Below the pieces are notes generated by a model. It saw only the letters and a program-made list of their open reading frames with translations. It had not been told where the DNA came from and did no database searches. A DNA stretch of 64,000 nt from Streptococcus suis (lineage in GTDB: Bacteria; Bacillota; Bacilli; Lactobacillales; Streptococcaceae): positions 124,001 through 188,000 of the forward strand of contig NZ_CP082205.1 of assembly GCF_019856455.1 (NCBI RefSeq), given 5' to 3'. Both the position numbers and the translations under genes were made by a program. This document shows positions 28,010 to 40,527 of the stretch, piece by piece (position 1 is the stretch's first letter; the number at the start of each line of letters is the position of its first letter).

Positions 28010-28041
28010 AAAATTCTTTGGATTTTCCAGAGAATTTTTTT
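28010..28041 (+). terminator. Terminator of the pur operon
   Basis: AAAATTCTTTGGA / TCCAGAGAATTTT hairpin with a T-run. The same sequence is repeated after the MFS gene at 31975-32005. Confidence 0.85.
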
Positions 28042-28048
28042 GTTTACT

Positions 28049-28056
28049 TGCGAATA
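28049..28056 (+). promoter_or_regulatory. ComX box 1 (TGCGAATA)
   Basis: TTGCGAATAAATAGGT around this box is identical to the box at 38823, beyond the 8-bp core. The streptococcal ComX (SigX) box consensus is TNCGAATA. It lies just after the pur terminator and points toward the peptide cluster. Confidence 0.6.
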
Positions 28057-28103
28057 AATAGGTGAAGGGGAAGCCAGCTCACAACTTATTCAAAAAAAGT
28101 ATC

Positions 28104-28201
28104 GTCATTTAGTTTTTCTTTTATTACTTCGTTAACTCGCCTTGCCTAACTCTAGTTATGCCTGCGGCTCATTGCCTAGTACTAAAAGTAAACTAAAAGA
28201 C
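28104..28201 (+). repeat. Miniature repeat, short form
   Basis: 98 bp with GTCATTTAGTTT and AAACTAAAAGAC ends. Both ends match the 211-bp element at 6577-6787, and the middle is different, with TAACT/AGTTA as its only clear hairpin. It separates ComX box 1 from boxes 2 and 3 and here carries no IS. Its right flank is TATA. Confidence 0.7.
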
Positions 28202-28234
28202 TATAAAAAATTTTTTCAAAAAAAGAAAACGATT

Positions 28235-28242
28235 TGCGAATA
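28235..28242 (+). promoter_or_regulatory. ComX box 2 (TGCGAATA)
   Basis: TTTGCGAATAAGTAAGTG, followed by a GGGGAA/TTCCCC palindrome. The downstream layout resembles that after box 1, suggesting a duplicated promoter segment split by the repeat at 28104. Confidence 0.6.
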
Positions 28243-28312
28243 AGTAAGTGAGAGGGGAAATTCCCCTCAAGGAGATACACACTTGAAAAAATAAATCATT
28301 TTCCAAATGATT

Positions 28313-28320
28313 TACGAATA
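28313..28320 (+). promoter_or_regulatory. ComX box 3 (TACGAATA) of the peptide genes
   Basis: The canonical core TACGAATA, 33 bp before the first peptide ATG. It lies at the foot of an AAATCATTT/AAATGATTT hairpin (28292-28314). I take this as the main competence promoter of the cluster. Confidence 0.7.
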
Positions 28321-28353
28321 AACAAGTGTAGGAAAAATGAAAGGAGAATGAAT

Positions 28354-28443
28354 ATGACACAATTTATGAATGAAACAAATCGAAAGTTTGAAGTAAGCCA
28401 ACCAGAATTCATCACCGTTACATGGAAATGTACCATGAAATAA
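28354..28443 (+). CDS. Candidate lanthipeptide precursor 1
   Basis: 29 residues, ATG 28354 after AAAGGAG. It starts MTQFMNETNRKFEVSQ and ends PEFITVTWKCTMK. The first 20 residues are nearly identical to the second copy. The C-terminal part has two Thr, one Cys and a final Thr, which could be dehydrated and cyclised by the LanKC encoded downstream. No double-glycine motif is present, so another protease would remove any leader. It is too short for usual gene finders. Precursor role is inferred from position, duplication and the adjacent synthetase. Confidence 0.7.
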   Translation: MTQFMNETNRKFEVSQPEFITVTWKCTMK

Positions 28444-28465
28444 TTAATAAAGTAAGGAGAAAACT

Positions 28466-28555
28466 ATGACCCAATTTATGAATGACACAAGTCGTAAGTT
28501 TGAAGTAAGCCAACCAGAGTTCATCACCGTTACATGGAAATGTACAGTTGGATAA
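28466..28555 (+). CDS. Candidate lanthipeptide precursor 2
   Basis: 29 residues, ATG 28466 after AAGGAG. It starts MTQFMNDTSRKFEVSQ and ends PEFITVTWKCTVG. It differs from precursor 1 at NE/ND, TN/TS and the last two residues only; the TVTWKCT segment is unchanged. Tandem, nearly identical small peptides are common for precursors of ribosomal natural products. It lies 22 bp after the first. Confidence 0.7.
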   Translation: MTQFMNDTSRKFEVSQPEFITVTWKCTVG

Positions 28556-28614
28556 AATGATACATAGGTACGTTGATTCATTTTGTAGGTATAAAGTCTA
28601 GTGGAGAAAAGTAA

Positions 28615-28788
28615 ATGAAAGAAGCAACTTATACATTATCTTGTGGTAAAGCTGATATAGGGAATAAAAATACTTCAAAGATTGAAGAAAAATTTGAAAG
28701 ATATATGGAGGGAGTAGCTGAAAAATTAATCAAATCAGATAAAAAACGTATTGATAAATGGTTTTTTCATGTAAGAATTGAGGAATAA
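28615..28788 (+). CDS. 57-residue protein of the lanthipeptide cluster
   Basis: From ATG 28615 (GTGGAGAAAAGTAAATG) to 28788, two bases before the synthetase start. It begins MKEATYTLSCGKADIGNK and continues as a charged amphipathic helix (KIEEKFERYMEGVAEKL, KSDKKRIDKWFFHV). The N-terminal third has Thr, Ser and one Cys, so it could be a third substrate; the charged tail fits an accessory or immunity protein better. Family not recognised. Confidence 0.6.
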   Translation: MKEATYTLSCGKADIGNKNTSKIEEKFERYMEGVAEKLIKSDKKRIDKWFFHVRIEE

Positions 28789-28790
28789 GT

Positions 28791-30737
28791 ATGTTTAAGA
28801 TGGTAGATGCCCAACAAGTAAATAACCAAATTTATGGATTTAAGATTCATATCTCAGCAACTGCTGAAAACTATAAGCAAGTTTTTCAAGTAGTCTATCC
28901 TTTACTAGTAGAAAGTAAGGTTTGTTTTAAATATATTGAAGAAGATGTAGATGTATTGCGAAACTTTTCAGAACTTGAAAGTCGAGCAGAGTCTGGGAAG
29001 TATTTTACAATTTATCCTAACTCCCATATTCATTTTTTGGAGTTACTAGAGCAGCTCTACCTGAATATACCTAAGGATTTACAAGGAATCTATATTTTGA
29101 GCGACCGTCCCTACAAGGATTCAAATATTATTTTTTATCGATATGGATTTTTTGAAGATCATTCTCAATACAATGTTAATGGAATTCCCACTTTAGAGGG
29201 ACCAAATGGAGAGGTTTGGCAAGATTATCAGAAAGCTTATTTTGACTTGCCACCTTGGATTGACGATATTCAAGAGCCTCAAGTATTTCAGAAAAGTTAT
29301 CTTGCAGAAAAATATCAAGTTACGGATTGCCTGCGTATGAGTAATGGTGGAAATGCTTACCGAGGTTTTGATAAGGAAACCAATCAAGAAGTTATCATTA
29401 AGGAAGCACGAGCGGAAGTCGTTTCATATGAAAAGATTACAAAAAAGATGCTGCGAGAAAATGAATACAAATATGCTAAGCACCTGCAAGCTTCTAATCG
29501 AACTCCTAAGATACTGGAAAGAGTAAAAGAGTGGATAAATGACTACTATATCTATGAAAGCATCAGAGGCCAGAATTTGCTAGACTATGCTAGTCCAATG
29601 TCACTCTTTACGTACAGTAGCGACACTCCTGGTGAAAATATTGATAAATTTCAACATTTTCTTTCTCTAACAAAACAACTGATACATTTTATTGACTACT
29701 TCCATAAACGCAATATTGTTTTAAATGATATTCATGCTAATAATTTTATTGTGTCAGAAGATAATAAACTGTATTTTATTGATTTAGAAAATTCTTATGA
29801 AAACGAAAATGATAATTTAATTGGAATATATAATGAAATTAGTTTGAAAGAATGGAATAGACTAGATGGAAAACTTGGGGATTGTCATAAACTGGCGAAT
29901 TTAATCTTATTTTTACTAGGTCGTTTGCAAATAAGAAGTGGAGAGAAATATGAAGCTTGTTTAACAGATGATTTGCTAAGTAGATATGGTATAAAAACTA
30001 ATCTATCCCAACTGATTTCCTATCTACTTTCTGACGAAGCAAGTATATCTGTTGCAAAAGAAAAGGTTGAAAATGTAAGAGCAGAGCTAGGAAAAGTCTG
30101 TTGTGAGTTAATACCTTATGAAGATTCAATGCCTGAAGTTTCCATTCCCATTAGTCAATTATTGGATTTAGATGGCTTATCCAGATATTTGCATTGTAAG
30201 GAAGATGAAGCTCGCTTGAAAATTCTTATTGATAGAGAAACCAATATGGGATTAGATGGCTTGGCTGGAGTTATCGTCTTAATGGAGGACGGGGATCTAC
30301 CAGCTACCCATCAGCAATATGTTGTAACAAAGATTTTGGACAAAATTGTAGAAACAGAGTATGGACCATCAATTGCATATGGACTGGGGTATGCTTCGCC
30401 TTATCTAACTACAGGTGTTGCGGGGGTGCTTAAAGCCTTGCAGTATATTGGTTATCCGAAGTTCCTCGACCTATCGCAAGAATTAGTGAAGAGTTTGTTA
30501 GTTGAGTATGGTCAATATCCAGATTTTAGGCAAGGGATGTTGGGAGTTGCAGATACCTTGCTAGATATATTTAGTGCTACAACGGATCAGAAACTACTGG
30601 CAACCGTAGAGAAACAGTTAGTGATGGTTGCAATTAAGGCAAAGTATGATAAGAAATTACAAAAAGAATTATTTTATGTATTTTCACGTTACGGGAGAAT
30701 AAAAAATGAATTTATTATTAAGGAACAAACTGTATAA
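28791..30737 (+). CDS. Class III lanthionine synthetase (LanKC type)
   Basis: 648 residues, against roughly 850 in typical members. Order: N-terminal lyase-like domain (about 1-165) with YFTIYP, YILSDRPYKDS and IIFYRYGFF, then PPWI. A Ser/Thr-kinase-like domain (about 175-400) follows, with a glycine loop GGNAYRG, NDIHANNF as catalytic loop and FIDLE in place of DFG. A shortened LanC-like cyclase (about 450-640) has GLDGLAGV, YLTTGVAGV and QGMLGVAD helices but no visible zinc ligands, as in class III. It would phosphorylate and dehydrate Ser/Thr of the precursors and add Cys. The start follows GAGGAATAAGT. Next gene overlaps by 32 bp. Confidence 0.85.
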   Translation: MFKMVDAQQVNNQIYGFKIHISATAENYKQVFQVVYPLLVESKVCFKYIEEDVDVLRNFSELESRAESGKYFTIYPNSHIHFLELLEQLYLNIPKDLQGIYILSDRPYKDSNIIFYRYGFFEDHSQYNVNGIPTLEGPNGEVWQDYQKAYFDLPPWIDDIQEPQVFQKSYLAEKYQVTDCLRMSNGGNAYRGFDKETNQEVIIKEARAEVVSYEKITKKMLRENEYKYAKHLQASNRTPKILERVKEWINDYYIYESIRGQNLLDYASPMSLFTYSSDTPGENIDKFQHFLSLTKQLIHFIDYFHKRNIVLNDIHANNFIVSEDNKLYFIDLENSYENENDNLIGIYNEISLKEWNRLDGKLGDCHKLANLILFLLGRLQIRSGEKYEACLTDDLLSRYGIKTNLSQLISYLLSDEASISVAKEKVENVRAELGKVCCELIPYEDSMPEVSIPISQLLDLDGLSRYLHCKEDEARLKILIDRETNMGLDGLAGVIVLMEDGDLPATHQQYVVTKILDKIVETEYGPSIAYGLGYASPYLTTGVAGVLKALQYIGYPKFLDLSQELVKSLLVEYGQYPDFRQGMLGVADTLLDIFSATTDQKLLATVEKQLVMVAIKAKYDKKLQKELFYVFSRYGRIKNEFIIKEQTV

Positions 30738-31959
30738 TGTATTAGCTGTTTCACGTTTACTCAATTCATTGGGTGCACACATTTATAACCTTGTTTTCGT
30801 GATCTATGCAGCTACTCAATTTCGCTCAACATGGGCGATATCTGTCGCTAATATAATTATGGTTCTCCCTACAATTTTTTCATTTTATATGGGGATTCAA
30901 GCAGATAAGACTAAGAAAAAGGCAAACGCATTGTTTTCAGCAGCCCTTGTTCAGACTGTGTTATTCTTTGTTATGTCATTCTTACTTCAAAGTACAACGA
31001 TTGGAGTATTTGCTCTTGTTTGTGTGATGAATGTAATAACTGATTTACTGTCTGATTATTCTTCAGGTTTGAGGTTACCGATTATGCAGAAGAACTTGAA
31101 AGAGGACGAACTTATGGAGGCTTATTCCTTCTTTCAGTTCATTTCTTGTGTGAGTGGTATTGGTGGGCAGGCTTTAGGGTTATGGCTTCTATCATTGTCA
31201 GGTAATAATTTTAGTATTGTTGCGATGTTGAACGCTTGTTTCTTCTTTATTTCTGGAATTTTACTCTATACACATAAAAAACATTTGACGCATGATGAGA
31301 TTGAAATAGCATCGTCACAATCCATCAAACAACAGCTAAGTGATGTGATTGATGGTATTAAGGTTGTTTTTGAAACCAATGCCTCTGGTAATCTTTTGAC
31401 AACTTTAAGTTGTATTTTACTTATGAATGCCCTAGGTGGTGCACTTGGTTCTATCTATACTATCTATTTTCTAGATAAGAGCTTGTTTGGGATGACTTAT
31501 GGTCAGAGTCTTTTGACTATCAATGCTATCTTGGTTGTGAGCATGATTGTTGGGAGCTTAACACCAAATGATTACTTTGCAAAGTTATCTCTTACAAAAA
31601 TGATGATTTGTAATGCGATAGCATTGATCGGAATTGGTTTGAGCCATTTATTGGGGTTAAGTGAGTTTATTGGAGTAGTTTTTCTAGCATTTTCAGCCTA
31701 TATCGGTGGAAAGGTCAATCCTAAAATTGATTCTCTATTACTAGCGAATACTTCGCCGGAACTACTAGCTCGAACAGATACTTTATTGACCATGTTATTT
31801 ACACTTTCTCTTCCTGTGGGAACCATTCTCTTTTCTACATTAGCTACTATACATATTCATTTGACTTGGGGGATGTTTGCTTTTATTGGATTGCTTGCAA
31901 CTATCTTGGCAGTCCAATCTCAGCTAGCAACTGAAAAATCTAAACTTGTATCTGTATAG
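30706..31959 (+). CDS. MFS transporter of the lanthipeptide cluster
   Basis: 417 residues with about 12 hydrophobic segments in two halves and a charged central loop (about 190-215), as in major-facilitator drug-efflux proteins. After segment 2 comes GIQADKTKKK, the motif A-like loop. The start ATG 30706 follows GGGAG inside the end of the LanKC gene, so the two are translationally coupled. It most likely exports the modified peptide or gives self-protection, replacing the ABC exporter usual for such clusters. Confidence 0.85.
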   Translation: MNLLLRNKLYNVLAVSRLLNSLGAHIYNLVFVIYAATQFRSTWAISVANIIMVLPTIFSFYMGIQADKTKKKANALFSAALVQTVLFFVMSFLLQSTTIGVFALVCVMNVITDLLSDYSSGLRLPIMQKNLKEDELMEAYSFFQFISCVSGIGGQALGLWLLSLSGNNFSIVAMLNACFFFISGILLYTHKKHLTHDEIEIASSQSIKQQLSDVIDGIKVVFETNASGNLLTTLSCILLMNALGGALGSIYTIYFLDKSLFGMTYGQSLLTINAILVVSMIVGSLTPNDYFAKLSLTKMMICNAIALIGIGLSHLLGLSEFIGVVFLAFSAYIGGKVNPKIDSLLLANTSPELLARTDTLLTMLFTLSLPVGTILFSTLATIHIHLTWGMFAFIGLLATILAVQSQLATEKSKLVSV

Positions 31960-31974
31960 AATGGTTTGTTACTC

Positions 31975-32005
31975 AAAATTCTTTGGATTTTCCAGAGAAT
32001 TTTTT
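31975..32005 (+). terminator. Terminator of the lanthipeptide cluster
   Basis: The same AAAATTCTTTGGA / TCCAGAGAATTTT hairpin that ends the pur operon, with a T-run. The identity of the two terminators suggests the cluster was inserted or duplicated together with this sequence. Confidence 0.85.
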
Positions 32006-36125: not shown

Positions 36126-37028
36126 ATGAACGATAAGGAATTTGGACAACGTGTACGTCAACTTCGAGAAACCGCTAGTCTGACACGTGAACAGTTTTGC
36201 GATGACGAACTTGAGCTCTCCGTCCGCCAACTAACCCGTATCGAAGCAGGTACTTCTAAGCCGACTTTTTCAAAAATCCAGTATATCGCAACCCGCTTAG
36301 GCATGGGGCTCTATGAGCTTATGCCTGATTATGTGTCGCTACCTGAACGATATTCCAAACTGAAGTTTGATGTACTTCGTACACCGACTTATGAAAATGA
36401 GGAATTGATGGGAAAACGGGCAGATATGATGACGGAAATCTATGATGATTATTACGACGACTTGCCTGAGGAGGAGAAAATAGCGATTGATGCCATTCAA
36501 TCCATTATTGATGTATTTGAAACGAAGACAGCAGAATTTGGTCAAGATATTCTAGAAGATTATTTTGAACAAATCCAAAGAAAACCCCAATTTTCAGCCA
36601 ACGATTTGTTGATAATCCAGCTCTATTTAATCAATTTGAGAATGGAAGTTAAACAGAGTAGTGATTTTCAGCACTTTTTAGACTTGGTGGAAAAGTTACC
36701 AAGCCAAGTAGAATTAGTTGAATCTGGGGATTTGTTTATTTTAAGGGATGTGATGATAACTTCTGTTGGACTTTTGGGACAAAAGGAAGAATTTAGCTAT
36801 ATTCCTACACTCTTTGAAGCACTTGATAAGATAATGCAGAAGACCCAAGATTTTCAAAAGAAACCTATTCTTAATCTGCTTAAGTGGAAATATGAGTTGT
36901 TAATAAATAAAGATAAAGATGCTGCAACTGCCTTATATGAAGAAGCACTTCTTTTTGCAAGAATAATTGGTAATGCCCACCTAACGGCTAAATTAGAAGA
37001 AGAGTGGAGAAAAGATAGTCAATTATAG
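36126..37028 (+). CDS. comR: ComR, Rgg-type competence regulator
   Basis: 300 residues. N-terminal XRE helix-turn-helix (FGQRVRQLRETASLTREQF to about residue 65), followed by a TPR-like helical peptide-binding domain. ComR binds the imported ComS-derived peptide XIP and then activates comS and comX at palindromic ComR boxes (established in streptococci). The assignment is supported by comS immediately downstream and the shared box. The gene has its own TATAAT near 36092 and a GGAGG site. Its stop codon overlaps the first ComR box by one base. Confidence 0.95.
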   Translation: MNDKEFGQRVRQLRETASLTREQFCDDELELSVRQLTRIEAGTSKPTFSKIQYIATRLGMGLYELMPDYVSLPERYSKLKFDVLRTPTYENEELMGKRADMMTEIYDDYYDDLPEEEKIAIDAIQSIIDVFETKTAEFGQDILEDYFEQIQRKPQFSANDLLIIQLYLINLRMEVKQSSDFQHFLDLVEKLPSQVELVESGDLFILRDVMITSVGLLGQKEEFSYIPTLFEALDKIMQKTQDFQKKPILNLLKWKYELLINKDKDAATALYEEALLFARIIGNAHLTAKLEEEWRKDSQL

Positions 37029-37098: not shown

Positions 37099-37164
37099 AT
37101 GATTACAATTCTTACAAAAGTTTTTCCATTTGGAGATTTCTCAACAAGCTGGTGGAATTTTTAA
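37099..37164 (+). CDS. comS: ComS pheromone precursor, copy 1
   Basis: 21 residues from ATG 37099 after GAAGGAGA. It begins MITILTKVFPF and ends GDFSTSWWNF, a double-Trp XIP tail as in streptococcal ComS peptides. It is exported and processed, the C-terminal part re-enters by oligopeptide permease and binds ComR. It lies 70 bp after comR. Copy 2 differs at one residue (ILTK here, IFTK there), outside the mature tail. Confidence 0.92.
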   Translation: MITILTKVFPFGDFSTSWWNF

Positions 37165-37454: not shown

Positions 37455-37520
37455 ATGATTACAATTTTTACAAAAGTTTTTCCATTTGGAGATTTCTCGA
37501 CAAGCTGGTGGAATTTTTAA
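37455..37520 (+). CDS. comS: ComS pheromone precursor, copy 2
   Basis: 21 residues, MITIFTKVFPF...GDFSTSWWNF, with the same GAAGGAGA ribosome-binding site and upstream ComR box as copy 1. The predicted mature tail is identical, so both genes feed the same pheromone. Confidence 0.9.
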   Translation: MITIFTKVFPFGDFSTSWWNF

Positions 37521-38822: not shown

Positions 38823-38830
38823 TGCGAATA
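38823..38830 (+). promoter_or_regulatory. ComX box before a 37-codon ORF
   Basis: TTGCGAATAAATAGGT, identical over 16 bases to the box at 28049. It is preceded by a T-run, as is common upstream of these boxes. Confidence 0.65.
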
Positions 38831-39003: not shown

Positions 39004-40527
39004 ATGACAGAATTAGATGTAGTTTCGGACGTAGTTACTCATCCTGAGGAAACTTATCGACGTAGTCGTAGAGCATCCCGCAGACAGCAAGTGCAACTGA
39101 ATGGTGAATTTCATGAAAGAGTATTAAAGACAAAGTACTGGCCAGCTCTTGTTTGGAGCTTAGTTTTAAGTGTTTTTAGCGTAGCCAATCCACTGCTAAT
39201 GCCATTTGCAACCAATATACAAACTCAAAATTTATATGCAGGGATGGCAATGGCAAATGGACAAATCCCTTATGGTGATTTCTTTGGTACAAGCGGGTTA
39301 TTATTCTACTTACTTGCTTTCTTAGGTCATCTGGGAGGGACTTTCATTATCTTTGGAATCCTCCAGTTTATAGCATTACTGATAGCGGGAATCTATTTTT
39401 ATAAGATTGTAGCTTATTTTAGTCAGTCAGAACACCTAGCGACAAGTTCTAGCCATTGGTTCTATGTATTTATTTTTGCACTTGGTTTTGGAGGGATGTA
39501 TGCAGAAATGTTTGCTCTTCCGTTTCTTTTGACTAGTGTGTGGTTTCTGGTCCGCTATTTTGAAAATGCAGTGCGTGATGAGGCATTTATCCTCTACGGA
39601 ATCGATGCGGCATTGGTATTTTTAATTTACCCAAAAAGTCTGATTCTTTGGTTAGTTGCGGGTCTAGTTTTATTTATTTTTAATATCCAACACCGCCAAG
39701 TTACTCGAGGAATCTATCAATTATTAGCAACCATTTTTGGTTTTCTTCTGATTCTATATGCGGTAGGTTATTATGCTTTTGAGGCGCAGATTCTGGGGAC
39801 AGCTATTCAACAAACTTTCCTTTATAACTTACAGTTAGACTTTCACCATTCCTATCTATATTTAGCCTTGGCGATTGTGTCTGTATTTTTACTCTTATCT
39901 GGATTCTTTAAAAGTTTCATCCAAATGGTGTTTTCTTTCAAACAAGGAAGACATACCTATATCAAAGTTCTCCTATTATTGACTTTCTTAGTTCAATGTG
40001 TCTTTATTATTGGGAATGCTAATTTTCAATGGAGCCAACTCATTCTTCTTTTACCGTATGGTTTTGCGATGTCGGTCGTTTACCTGCGTGATGAGGATGT
40101 AGAAGATTATCGTGGGTATTTGCGTCGTCAATTCTTTCTTCCGTTAGCTATTTGCTTGGGTATTATCGCTCAACCTGCTTATCTTTATTTGGTACAGGGA
40201 GATTTGAGAACTGACCGTGAACAAGTTGCCAATTACATTGGTGAACAAACAAAAGATTCGGATAAGATTTATGTTTGGGATAATAGCGCAAGCATCTATC
40301 TTTCAAGTCAACGTTTATCTGCCGCAACGATTACTACAGCAGAATCCTATCTGAATACTGACGACAATAAAAATAGCTTGATGTATGACATCAATAAAAA
40401 TGAGGCAAAATTTGTAGTCGTCAATAAGACTTTGCCAATTCTAGATGAAATCAAGACAAATTTAGAATCACAGTACCAGTCTGTTCAGACAACGGACTAC
40501 TTTACGATTTATCAAAAGAATGAATGA
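39004..40527 (+). CDS. GT-C type polytopic membrane glycosyltransferase-like protein
   Basis: 507 residues with 10-12 hydrophobic segments starting near residue 50 after a basic cytoplasmic N-terminus (RRSRRASRRQQ). The first outside loop has NGQIPYGDFFGTSG, resembling the acidic motif of family 39/ArnT-like GT-C enzymes, and the C-terminal 110 residues form an outside domain. Members transfer sugars from lipid carriers; the substrate is not known. It has its own TATAAT near 38971 and GGAG site. Confidence 0.65.
   Translation: MTELDVVSDVVTHPEETYRRSRRASRRQQVQLNGEFHERVLKTKYWPALVWSLVLSVFSVANPLLMPFATNIQTQNLYAGMAMANGQIPYGDFFGTSGLLFYLLAFLGHLGGTFIIFGILQFIALLIAGIYFYKIVAYFSQSEHLATSSSHWFYVFIFALGFGGMYAEMFALPFLLTSVWFLVRYFENAVRDEAFILYGIDAALVFLIYPKSLILWLVAGLVLFIFNIQHRQVTRGIYQLLATIFGFLLILYAVGYYAFEAQILGTAIQQTFLYNLQLDFHHSYLYLALAIVSVFLLLSGFFKSFIQMVFSFKQGRHTYIKVLLLLTFLVQCVFIIGNANFQWSQLILLLPYGFAMSVVYLRDEDVEDYRGYLRRQFFLPLAICLGIIAQPAYLYLVQGDLRTDREQVANYIGEQTKDSDKIYVWDNSASIYLSSQRLSAATITTAESYLNTDDNKNSLMYDINKNEAKFVVVNKTLPILDEIKTNLESQYQSVQTTDYFTIYQKNE

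Follow-up and report, generated by a model that had tools for sequence, protein, structure and literature searches.

A class III-like lanthipeptide cluster behind ComX boxes: a candidate exchangeable peptide cassette between purB and ruvB in Streptococcus suis

We report the analysis of a 64,000-nucleotide stretch of a Streptococcus suis chromosome (positions 124001-188000 of 2,561,054 bases, about 2.56 Mb; hereafter the window), in which three ComX (CIN) boxes stand in front of two tandem small-peptide genes, a 57-residue open reading frame (ORF), the gene of a short LanKC-like synthetase and that of a transporter of the major facilitator superfamily (MFS) type. The named relatives of the enzyme at 96-100% identity are S. 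suis strains, in keeping with the placing of the species. In our reading, to which we would give a probability of about 0.6, this cluster is a swappable, competence-fired peptide-weapon cassette, one allele of a slot between purB and ruvB, and would make a small peptide bearing a TxxC ring. The original prediction had described a competence-controlled cluster of the class III lanthipeptide type; the exchangeable peptide slot near comRS, which lay beyond its view, is the key context.

Strong sequence evidence places the cluster under ComX control. Its promoter carries the CIN box that marks the ComX late regulon, with exact matches to TNCGAATA on the + strand at 28049, 28235 and 28313. Over the entire window this octamer is ordinary (9 found, 7.26 expected); three same-strand boxes in the 350-bp stretch that separates the purB stop codon from the first peptide were reached by none of 5000 shuffles, which gave a mean of 0.026. 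An extended motif, TNCGAATARNNARGTG, derived from the three boxes here, has six sites in the genome and its reversed control none. The other three sites lie just 5' of the start codons of radC (PF04002), of a ComFA-like helicase gene (our own naming, as Pfam shows helicase domains only) and of a PC4-domain gene, and the S. suis ComX regulon includes radC and comFA (PMC5167698, available part). The other published late genes of that regulon were left unmatched by the strict motif in the whole-genome search, which makes it selective rather than sensitive. The competence promoter of the original prediction is thus supported, and the boxes, the two 29-residue peptides, the 57-residue ORF, the 648-residue enzyme and the overlapping MFS-type gene that it had listed were all found in place; the terminator that it had seen at the end of the cluster is a motif that also follows purB.

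On the + strand the order is purB, a terminator-like motif, the three CIN boxes, peptides A and B, the 57-residue ORF, the enzyme and the transporter, followed 3' by a second terminator-like motif, a MerR-like gene, ruvB, more genes, comR and a ComS-like ORF. The names purB, MerR-like and ruvB were assigned from sequence, and comR by a profile match (ComR_TPR). We define the slot as the purB-ruvB interval; the 3' end of the cluster lies about 4 kb upstream of comR/comRS. The features are as follows.

About 28013-28040, + strand: terminator-like motif that follows purB and forms the left-hand member of the direct repeat around the cassette (motif search).
28049..28056, + strand: CIN (ComX) box 1, TGCGAATA, exact TNCGAATA match.
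28099..28206, no strand assigned: repeat element in the intergenic stretch that separates boxes 1 and 2; further copies occur at other sites of the genome (second at 578348) and across many S. suis-type genomes.
28235..28242, + strand: CIN (ComX) box 2, TGCGAATA, exact TNCGAATA match.
28313..28320, + strand: CIN (ComX) box 3, TACGAATA; the stretch from it to the ribosome-binding site (RBS) recurs in strains with other cargo.
28354..28443, + strand: candidate precursor peptide A, 29 amino acids, MTxF start, TWKC near the C-terminus (ORF); an alternative 31-residue start at 28348 lies only about 1 nt from the RBS.
28466..28555, + strand: candidate precursor peptide B, 29 amino acids, MTxF start, TWKC near the C-terminus (ORF).
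28615..28788, + strand: accessory ORF of 57 residues; at some other loci the same position holds a small ORF whose N-terminal part has a TxxC.
28791..30737, + strand: 648-residue short LanKC-like synthetase with RamC_N lyase, kinase and apparently truncated cyclase-like domain (profiles, structure alignment).
30706..31959, + strand: 417-residue MFS-type transporter, overlapping the enzyme gene (relative P0131 matches MFS_1).
About 31978-32005, + strand: terminator-like motif forming the right-hand member of that direct repeat (motif search).
36126..37028, + strand: comR (ComR_TPR), gene of the pheromone receptor, 3' of the slot (profile match).
37099..37164, + strand: ComS-like 21-residue ORF with a WW motif (ORF list; motif as described in the available part of PMC4072589).

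The slot was read at 28 purB sites, namely the window, the named S. suis contigs L031 and L032 and further S. suis-type genomes; by our own count of the listing they were drawn from 30 closely matching genomes, G244 (no purB on the contig) and G260 being left out. At 15 of the 28, the window counted, one to four CIN boxes lie no more than 900 bp from purB, with the nearest box at most 130 bp away, and what follows the boxes differs between strains. LanKC-type cargo is present in the window, L031 and L032, and as a remnant without the N-terminal part of the enzyme in L111. The sequence from the last box to the RBS is identical or nearly so in the window, L031, L032, L086-L089 and L094, and, between different types of cargo, diverges near the start codon; L095 and L096 have this segment directly after their first box, so that 10 of the 15 boxed sites share it. 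The terminator motif, in its strict pattern, stands at both cassette ends in the window, L031, L032 and L086, twice in L090, where the second separates the two cassettes, and once in each of the ten remaining boxed sites. Nine of the 13 box-free sites have it once and four (L106-L109) lack it. In five box-free sites compared with the window, the sequence past the single motif resembles that past the right-hand window copy; loss of the cassette by recombination between terminator copies is therefore possible in some strains.

The remaining cargo was named partly by profile (four ORFs of L087; one to four each of L086, L090, L092 and L105) and otherwise from ORF lists. L087 and, from the lists, L088, L089 and L094 carry, downstream of the CIN boxes, tandem arrays of basic peptides of about 30 residues, many of them with RRGRHTL at the end; the arrays are accompanied by genes for a CAAX protein (PF02517) and two ABC proteins and by more ORFs. 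In L095, L096 and part of L093 there are tandem FGYRGK-type peptides with a similar ORF set. L090 has a circular bacteriocin (TIGR03651) and then an FGYRGK-type cassette, with the terminator motif and CIN boxes before each. L092 has double-glycine peptides with a C39 exporter (TIGR01193), L105 has double-glycine peptides of which the two scanned match class IIb (TIGR03949), with a similar 717-residue ORF named from the list only, and L086 a small ORF with an ABC-type pair. The CIN-box operon SSU0038-45, which is highly expressed after XIP, encodes three membrane proteins, a CAAX protease, two ABC proteins and two small ORFs, and a bacteriocin role has been suggested for it (PMC5167698, available part). 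The L087-type cargo, between purB and ruvB, resembles that description, and from position and content as described SSU0038-45 appears to be the same slot with L087-type cargo; the resemblance suggests that the L087-type arrays are competence-induced peptides of an unassigned kind.

Some further observations on this region were made in passing. G244 has the boxes, and its ORFs by eye resemble the neighbours of the L090 circular bacteriocin, the peptide itself being absent from the ORF listing. In L095 and L096 a second CIN-box cluster, followed by double-glycine peptides, lies about 7.3-9 kb downstream of purB, past the MerR-like gene, placing two competence-linked peptide loci in one stretch. 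L092 has a comR-like gene (37% identity to the window ComR) after its bacteriocin and exporter genes and before ruvB. Downstream of comR in the window, near-identical double-Trp ComS-like 21-residue ORFs at 37099-37164 and 37455-37520, with an apparent folC fragment between them, are possibly a duplicated pheromone gene; comR and comS have been described as SSU0049 and SSU0050 (PMC4072589, available part). An extra CIN box, TTTTTGCGAATAAATAGGT, at 38823-38830 lies upstream of a 507-residue ORF at 39004 that has no Pfam match at 0.001.

The enzyme matches the RamC_N lyase profile (PF25816) at 1.1e-33 and the NF038151 LanKC profile with 259 bits, under the curated cut-off of 575, and the Pfam scan gave no match to PF05147 (LanC-like). 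Its hhalign alignment ends at template column 677 of 915, so that roughly the C-terminal quarter of the synthetase, which lies in the cyclase, stays uncovered; the structural alignment extends to ThurKC residue 843, with a different cyclase register. The lyase residues of ThurKC are given as K65, H67, K94, K108, K117, D152, R163 and R191 (PMC10604976, available part), and six of the eight are matched here, in an alignment with ThurKC read by hand, by K18, H20, K47, K70, D105 and R117, which are invariant in an alignment of 61 sequences. In the kinase E225, D313 and D331 are invariant in the same 61 sequences, K204 and E333 are present in at least 90%, and D331-L332-E333 (DLE) occupies the DFE position. 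The enzyme is, by its sequence, a member of a short (about 650 residues) streptococcal LanKC-related subfamily and not a full LanKC; within the 61 sequences most lyase and kinase catalytic residues are invariant or nearly so and the cyclase is apparently truncated. A LanKC-related enzyme in the company of precursors and a transporter, as originally predicted, is borne out, with the reservations of the profile score and the cyclase. The class III label has to be softened to class III-like: the profile score lies under the curated LanKC cut-off, the end of the cyclase is uncovered in profile alignments, and Sx2Sx3C is missing from both window peptides on inspection. With that motif absent, labionin chemistry is disfavoured.

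Peptides A and B differ at 4 of 29 residues, with a ratio of non-synonymous to synonymous substitution rates (dN/dS) of 0.22 on 10 changes. The 22 loci yielded 24 precursors, 22 of them distinct; every one begins with MTxF, contains [S/T]xxC and measures 27-38 residues; the mean probability of [ST]xxC in one shuffled precursor is 0.23. To our knowledge these are the smallest LanKC-type precursors. The 57-residue ORF has an N-terminal TxxC in the window and L032, as do its counterparts in L040, L042, L043, L044, L046, L047, L051, L052 and L054; L040 lacks an ATG there, L052 ends early, and L049 has SREC only, in a start-less stretch. Since four S. suis alleles (P0245-P0248) read TLSL in the TxxC position, the Cys is not essential, which weakens the idea that this ORF encodes a further substrate whose core is an N-terminal TxxC. 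The window transporter has no significant Pfam match of its own, and its relative P0131 matches MFS_1; it is probably an exporter, a means of self-protection, or both.

Elsewhere in the genus, 20 loci outside the S. suis slot have the order regulator, short peptide, enzyme, transporter, so that the gene order which the original prediction proposed to look for in other streptococci recurs there from peptide to transporter, but with an Rgg-like regulator in front and not a CIN array. This regulator is a full-length ORF of 282-296 residues in 18 loci and partial in two (L038, L039); the three of the 18 that were scanned all match TIGR01716 RGG_Cterm. The transporter follows the enzyme in 19 loci (the exception is L041), is in pieces in L047, and has only 23-24% identity in L036, L037 and L053. 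On reading the ORFs no Rgg gene was seen in the S. suis cassette, nor is there a CIN array 5' of the precursors at the Rgg-type loci, where two isolated boxes near genes, one lying 36 bp upstream of the L052 enzyme and the other some 160 bp upstream of the regulator in L042/L033, are taken as chance. In the enzyme tree, which omits the broken L051-L054, has only a piece of L049 and holds six rows of unrecorded context, P0003 among them, the S. suis CIN-box copies group together (100/100), with P0003 beside them, among Rgg-associated copies. G250 has a box-free purB site (L099) and carries an Rgg-type copy elsewhere (L046). Rgg control is likely ancestral, and since this cluster type adjoins an Rgg-like regulator elsewhere, its tie to competence seems to be a rewiring that took place in S. 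suis.

We propose the following mechanism. XIP and ComR would raise ComX, and ComX would read the one to four CIN boxes that open the slot; precursors, enzyme and transporter would then be made together with the uptake machinery and the late competence genes, a timing that we infer because of the boxes and the published induction of SSU0038-45. Kinase and lyase would phosphorylate and then eliminate Thr23, which stands at the conserved Thr/Ser position three residues ahead of the Cys, and perhaps other residues; Cys26 would add, giving one four-residue TWKC methyllanthionine ring, and the shortened cyclase may still assist its closure, or closure may be unassisted. A housekeeping protease would trim the peptide, and the MFS-type protein would export the product and perhaps also shield the producing cell. 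The cluster would probably have come from an Rgg-controlled ancestor and been rewired to competence. Acting during competence on neighbours without the cassette, the product would likely be antagonistic, by analogy with the other slot cargo.

A number of observations weigh against this reading. Alanine variants of ThurKC K108 and R191 are impaired (PMC10604976, available part), and the enzyme has E61 and Q147 at these positions; the catalytic cyclase residues F770/D771 of ThurKC (same source) are without a clear counterpart in the enzyme alignments, hhalign and the structural alignment disagreeing on the register. The precursors were picked by eye, one per non-suis locus, from RBS-preceded small ORFs, L041 being the least certain, and the cluster has neither a peptidase nor a recognised immunity gene. 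At the slot itself, 13 of 28 sites are free of boxes, the shared box-to-RBS segment is missing from five of the 15 boxed sites (L090, L092, L093, L105, L111), and only 4 of the 15 were found to have the flanking terminator repeat, to which the internal L090 copy is added. LanKC cassettes are also paired with different ComS types (..FGDFSTSWWNF in the window, ..GGNWGKWTDG in L032). A fixed link of pherotype and cassette was rejected on this last observation.

The enzyme might, alternatively, have a non-functional cyclase and only phosphorylate or dehydrate the peptides, leaving a linear peptide with dehydrobutyrine (Dhb) or phosphate, or a ring that closes spontaneously. We consider this unlikely but well worth keeping in view, given the C-terminal truncation relative to the LanKC profiles, the lack of a clear match to F770/D771 and the replacement of both lyase residues. 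That the modified peptide is not a weapon but a signal between cells, or a regulator acting on its own producer (of competence exit, for instance), seems to us improbable: the gene order in relatives begins with an Rgg-like regulator, Rgg proteins sense small peptides (review, available part), and the very short precursor goes with an MFS-type transporter rather than an ABC exporter of the bacteriocin type, but the S. suis cassette has no Rgg gene and no receptor candidate, and other slot cargo matches bacteriocin families.

It is also very unlikely that the cluster is a decaying, unexpressed remnant. The enzyme subfamily was found in 24 of the 284 Streptococcus genomes searched, and in six of these the copy is split, truncated or interrupted by stops; the L111 enzyme, which lacks its N-terminal part, points the same way. 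The window copy, however, is intact, in 18 of the 24 genomes the frame stays open along most of the query length, and dN/dS against L032 is far under 1 (enzyme 0.21, transporter 0.16, 57-residue ORF 0.12, on 8 changes in the last), so that the system looks kept rather than drifting. Chance boxes in a cluster outside the ComX regulon, a reading favoured by the unremarkable octamer count and by the late genes that the extended motif misses, are hardly credible, and we reject them, in view of the shuffles, of the genome sites of that motif, otherwise only before radC, comFA-like and PC4 genes, and of the boxes retained 5' of unrelated cargo.

Taken together, our reading of a competence-fired cassette can be extended, tentatively and at somewhat less than even odds, to the following picture. 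The purB-ruvB interval would be a competence-promoter dock near the pheromone receptor locus, where weapon cassettes are swapped by transformation as fusions near the start codon to one ComX box array, with terminator repeats allowing loss in some strains. One such cassette would represent a minimal lanthipeptide class (cyclase-reduced LanKC, precursors of 27-38 residues, a single TxxC ring), largely missed by mining that requires LanC, and switched from Rgg quorum sensing to competence. In this pig bacterium the DNA-uptake switch appears to control a slot whose small-peptide genes, probably weapons, differ by strain, which joins three usually separate fields: DNA uptake, weapon diversity and RiPP (ribosomally synthesised and post-translationally modified peptide) chemistry. 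If the picture is true, a competence-promoter cassette slot would explain how armament diversifies in a naturally transformable species, and it becomes testable whether strains gain DNA through killing cassette-free neighbours. The short enzyme subfamily offers a natural test of how much cyclase is needed.

Among known systems, the enzyme is closest to the LanKC synthetases (ThurKC, CurKC/CuvL, PneKC, SalKC; the PneKC and SalKC structures we take to be from streptococci), with which it shares the RamC_N lyase, the kinase, here with DLE standing for DFE, and the best whole-chain structural matches. It differs from them in its length of 648, against about 859-875 residues in the ThurKC chains, its apparently truncated cyclase, the missing PF05147 match and the replaced K108 and R191; the [ST]xxC precursors of 27-38 residues, instead of Sx2Sx3C, and the MFS-type partner also set the cluster apart from LanKC systems. 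The original prediction knew of no described system with this combination, and in the open-access papers searched we found no description of the short LanKC group or of the exchangeable slot, which is weak evidence of absence; streptococcal class III systems as such have, however, already been described. The class III family III_3 of S. pneumoniae is likewise a LanKC-based system in a streptococcus, but with Sx2Sx3C precursors, a prolyl oligopeptidase (LanPB) and a CAAX protease, and its survey required a LANC_like Pfam match (PMC7268733, available part), which the enzyme here lacks.

SSU0038-45 lies a few genes before comR (SSU0049), has CIN boxes and resembles the L087-type slot cargo in content, but it has CAAX/ABC genes and small ORFs and no LanKC, and the available part of PMC5167698 does not describe strain variability of the site. 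With the Rgg/SHP-controlled streptococcal RaS-RiPPs the related loci share an Rgg-type regulator adjoining a short precursor; the enzyme here is LanKC-like rather than a radical SAM enzyme, and the S. suis copy stands behind CIN boxes. Competence-coupled bacteriocins, which include those of S. salivarius and pneumococcal cib/blp, are mostly unmodified double-glycine peptides. Others are known from S. gordonii and S. mutans (PMC5167698, available part). They have in common with the present system peptides tied to competence, here predicted from the boxes, and differ from it in that a LanKC-like cluster is used here and cargo is exchanged close to the start codon. The S. suis cluster would thus resemble, in its working, a competence-coupled bacteriocin that makes use of a LanKC-like enzyme.

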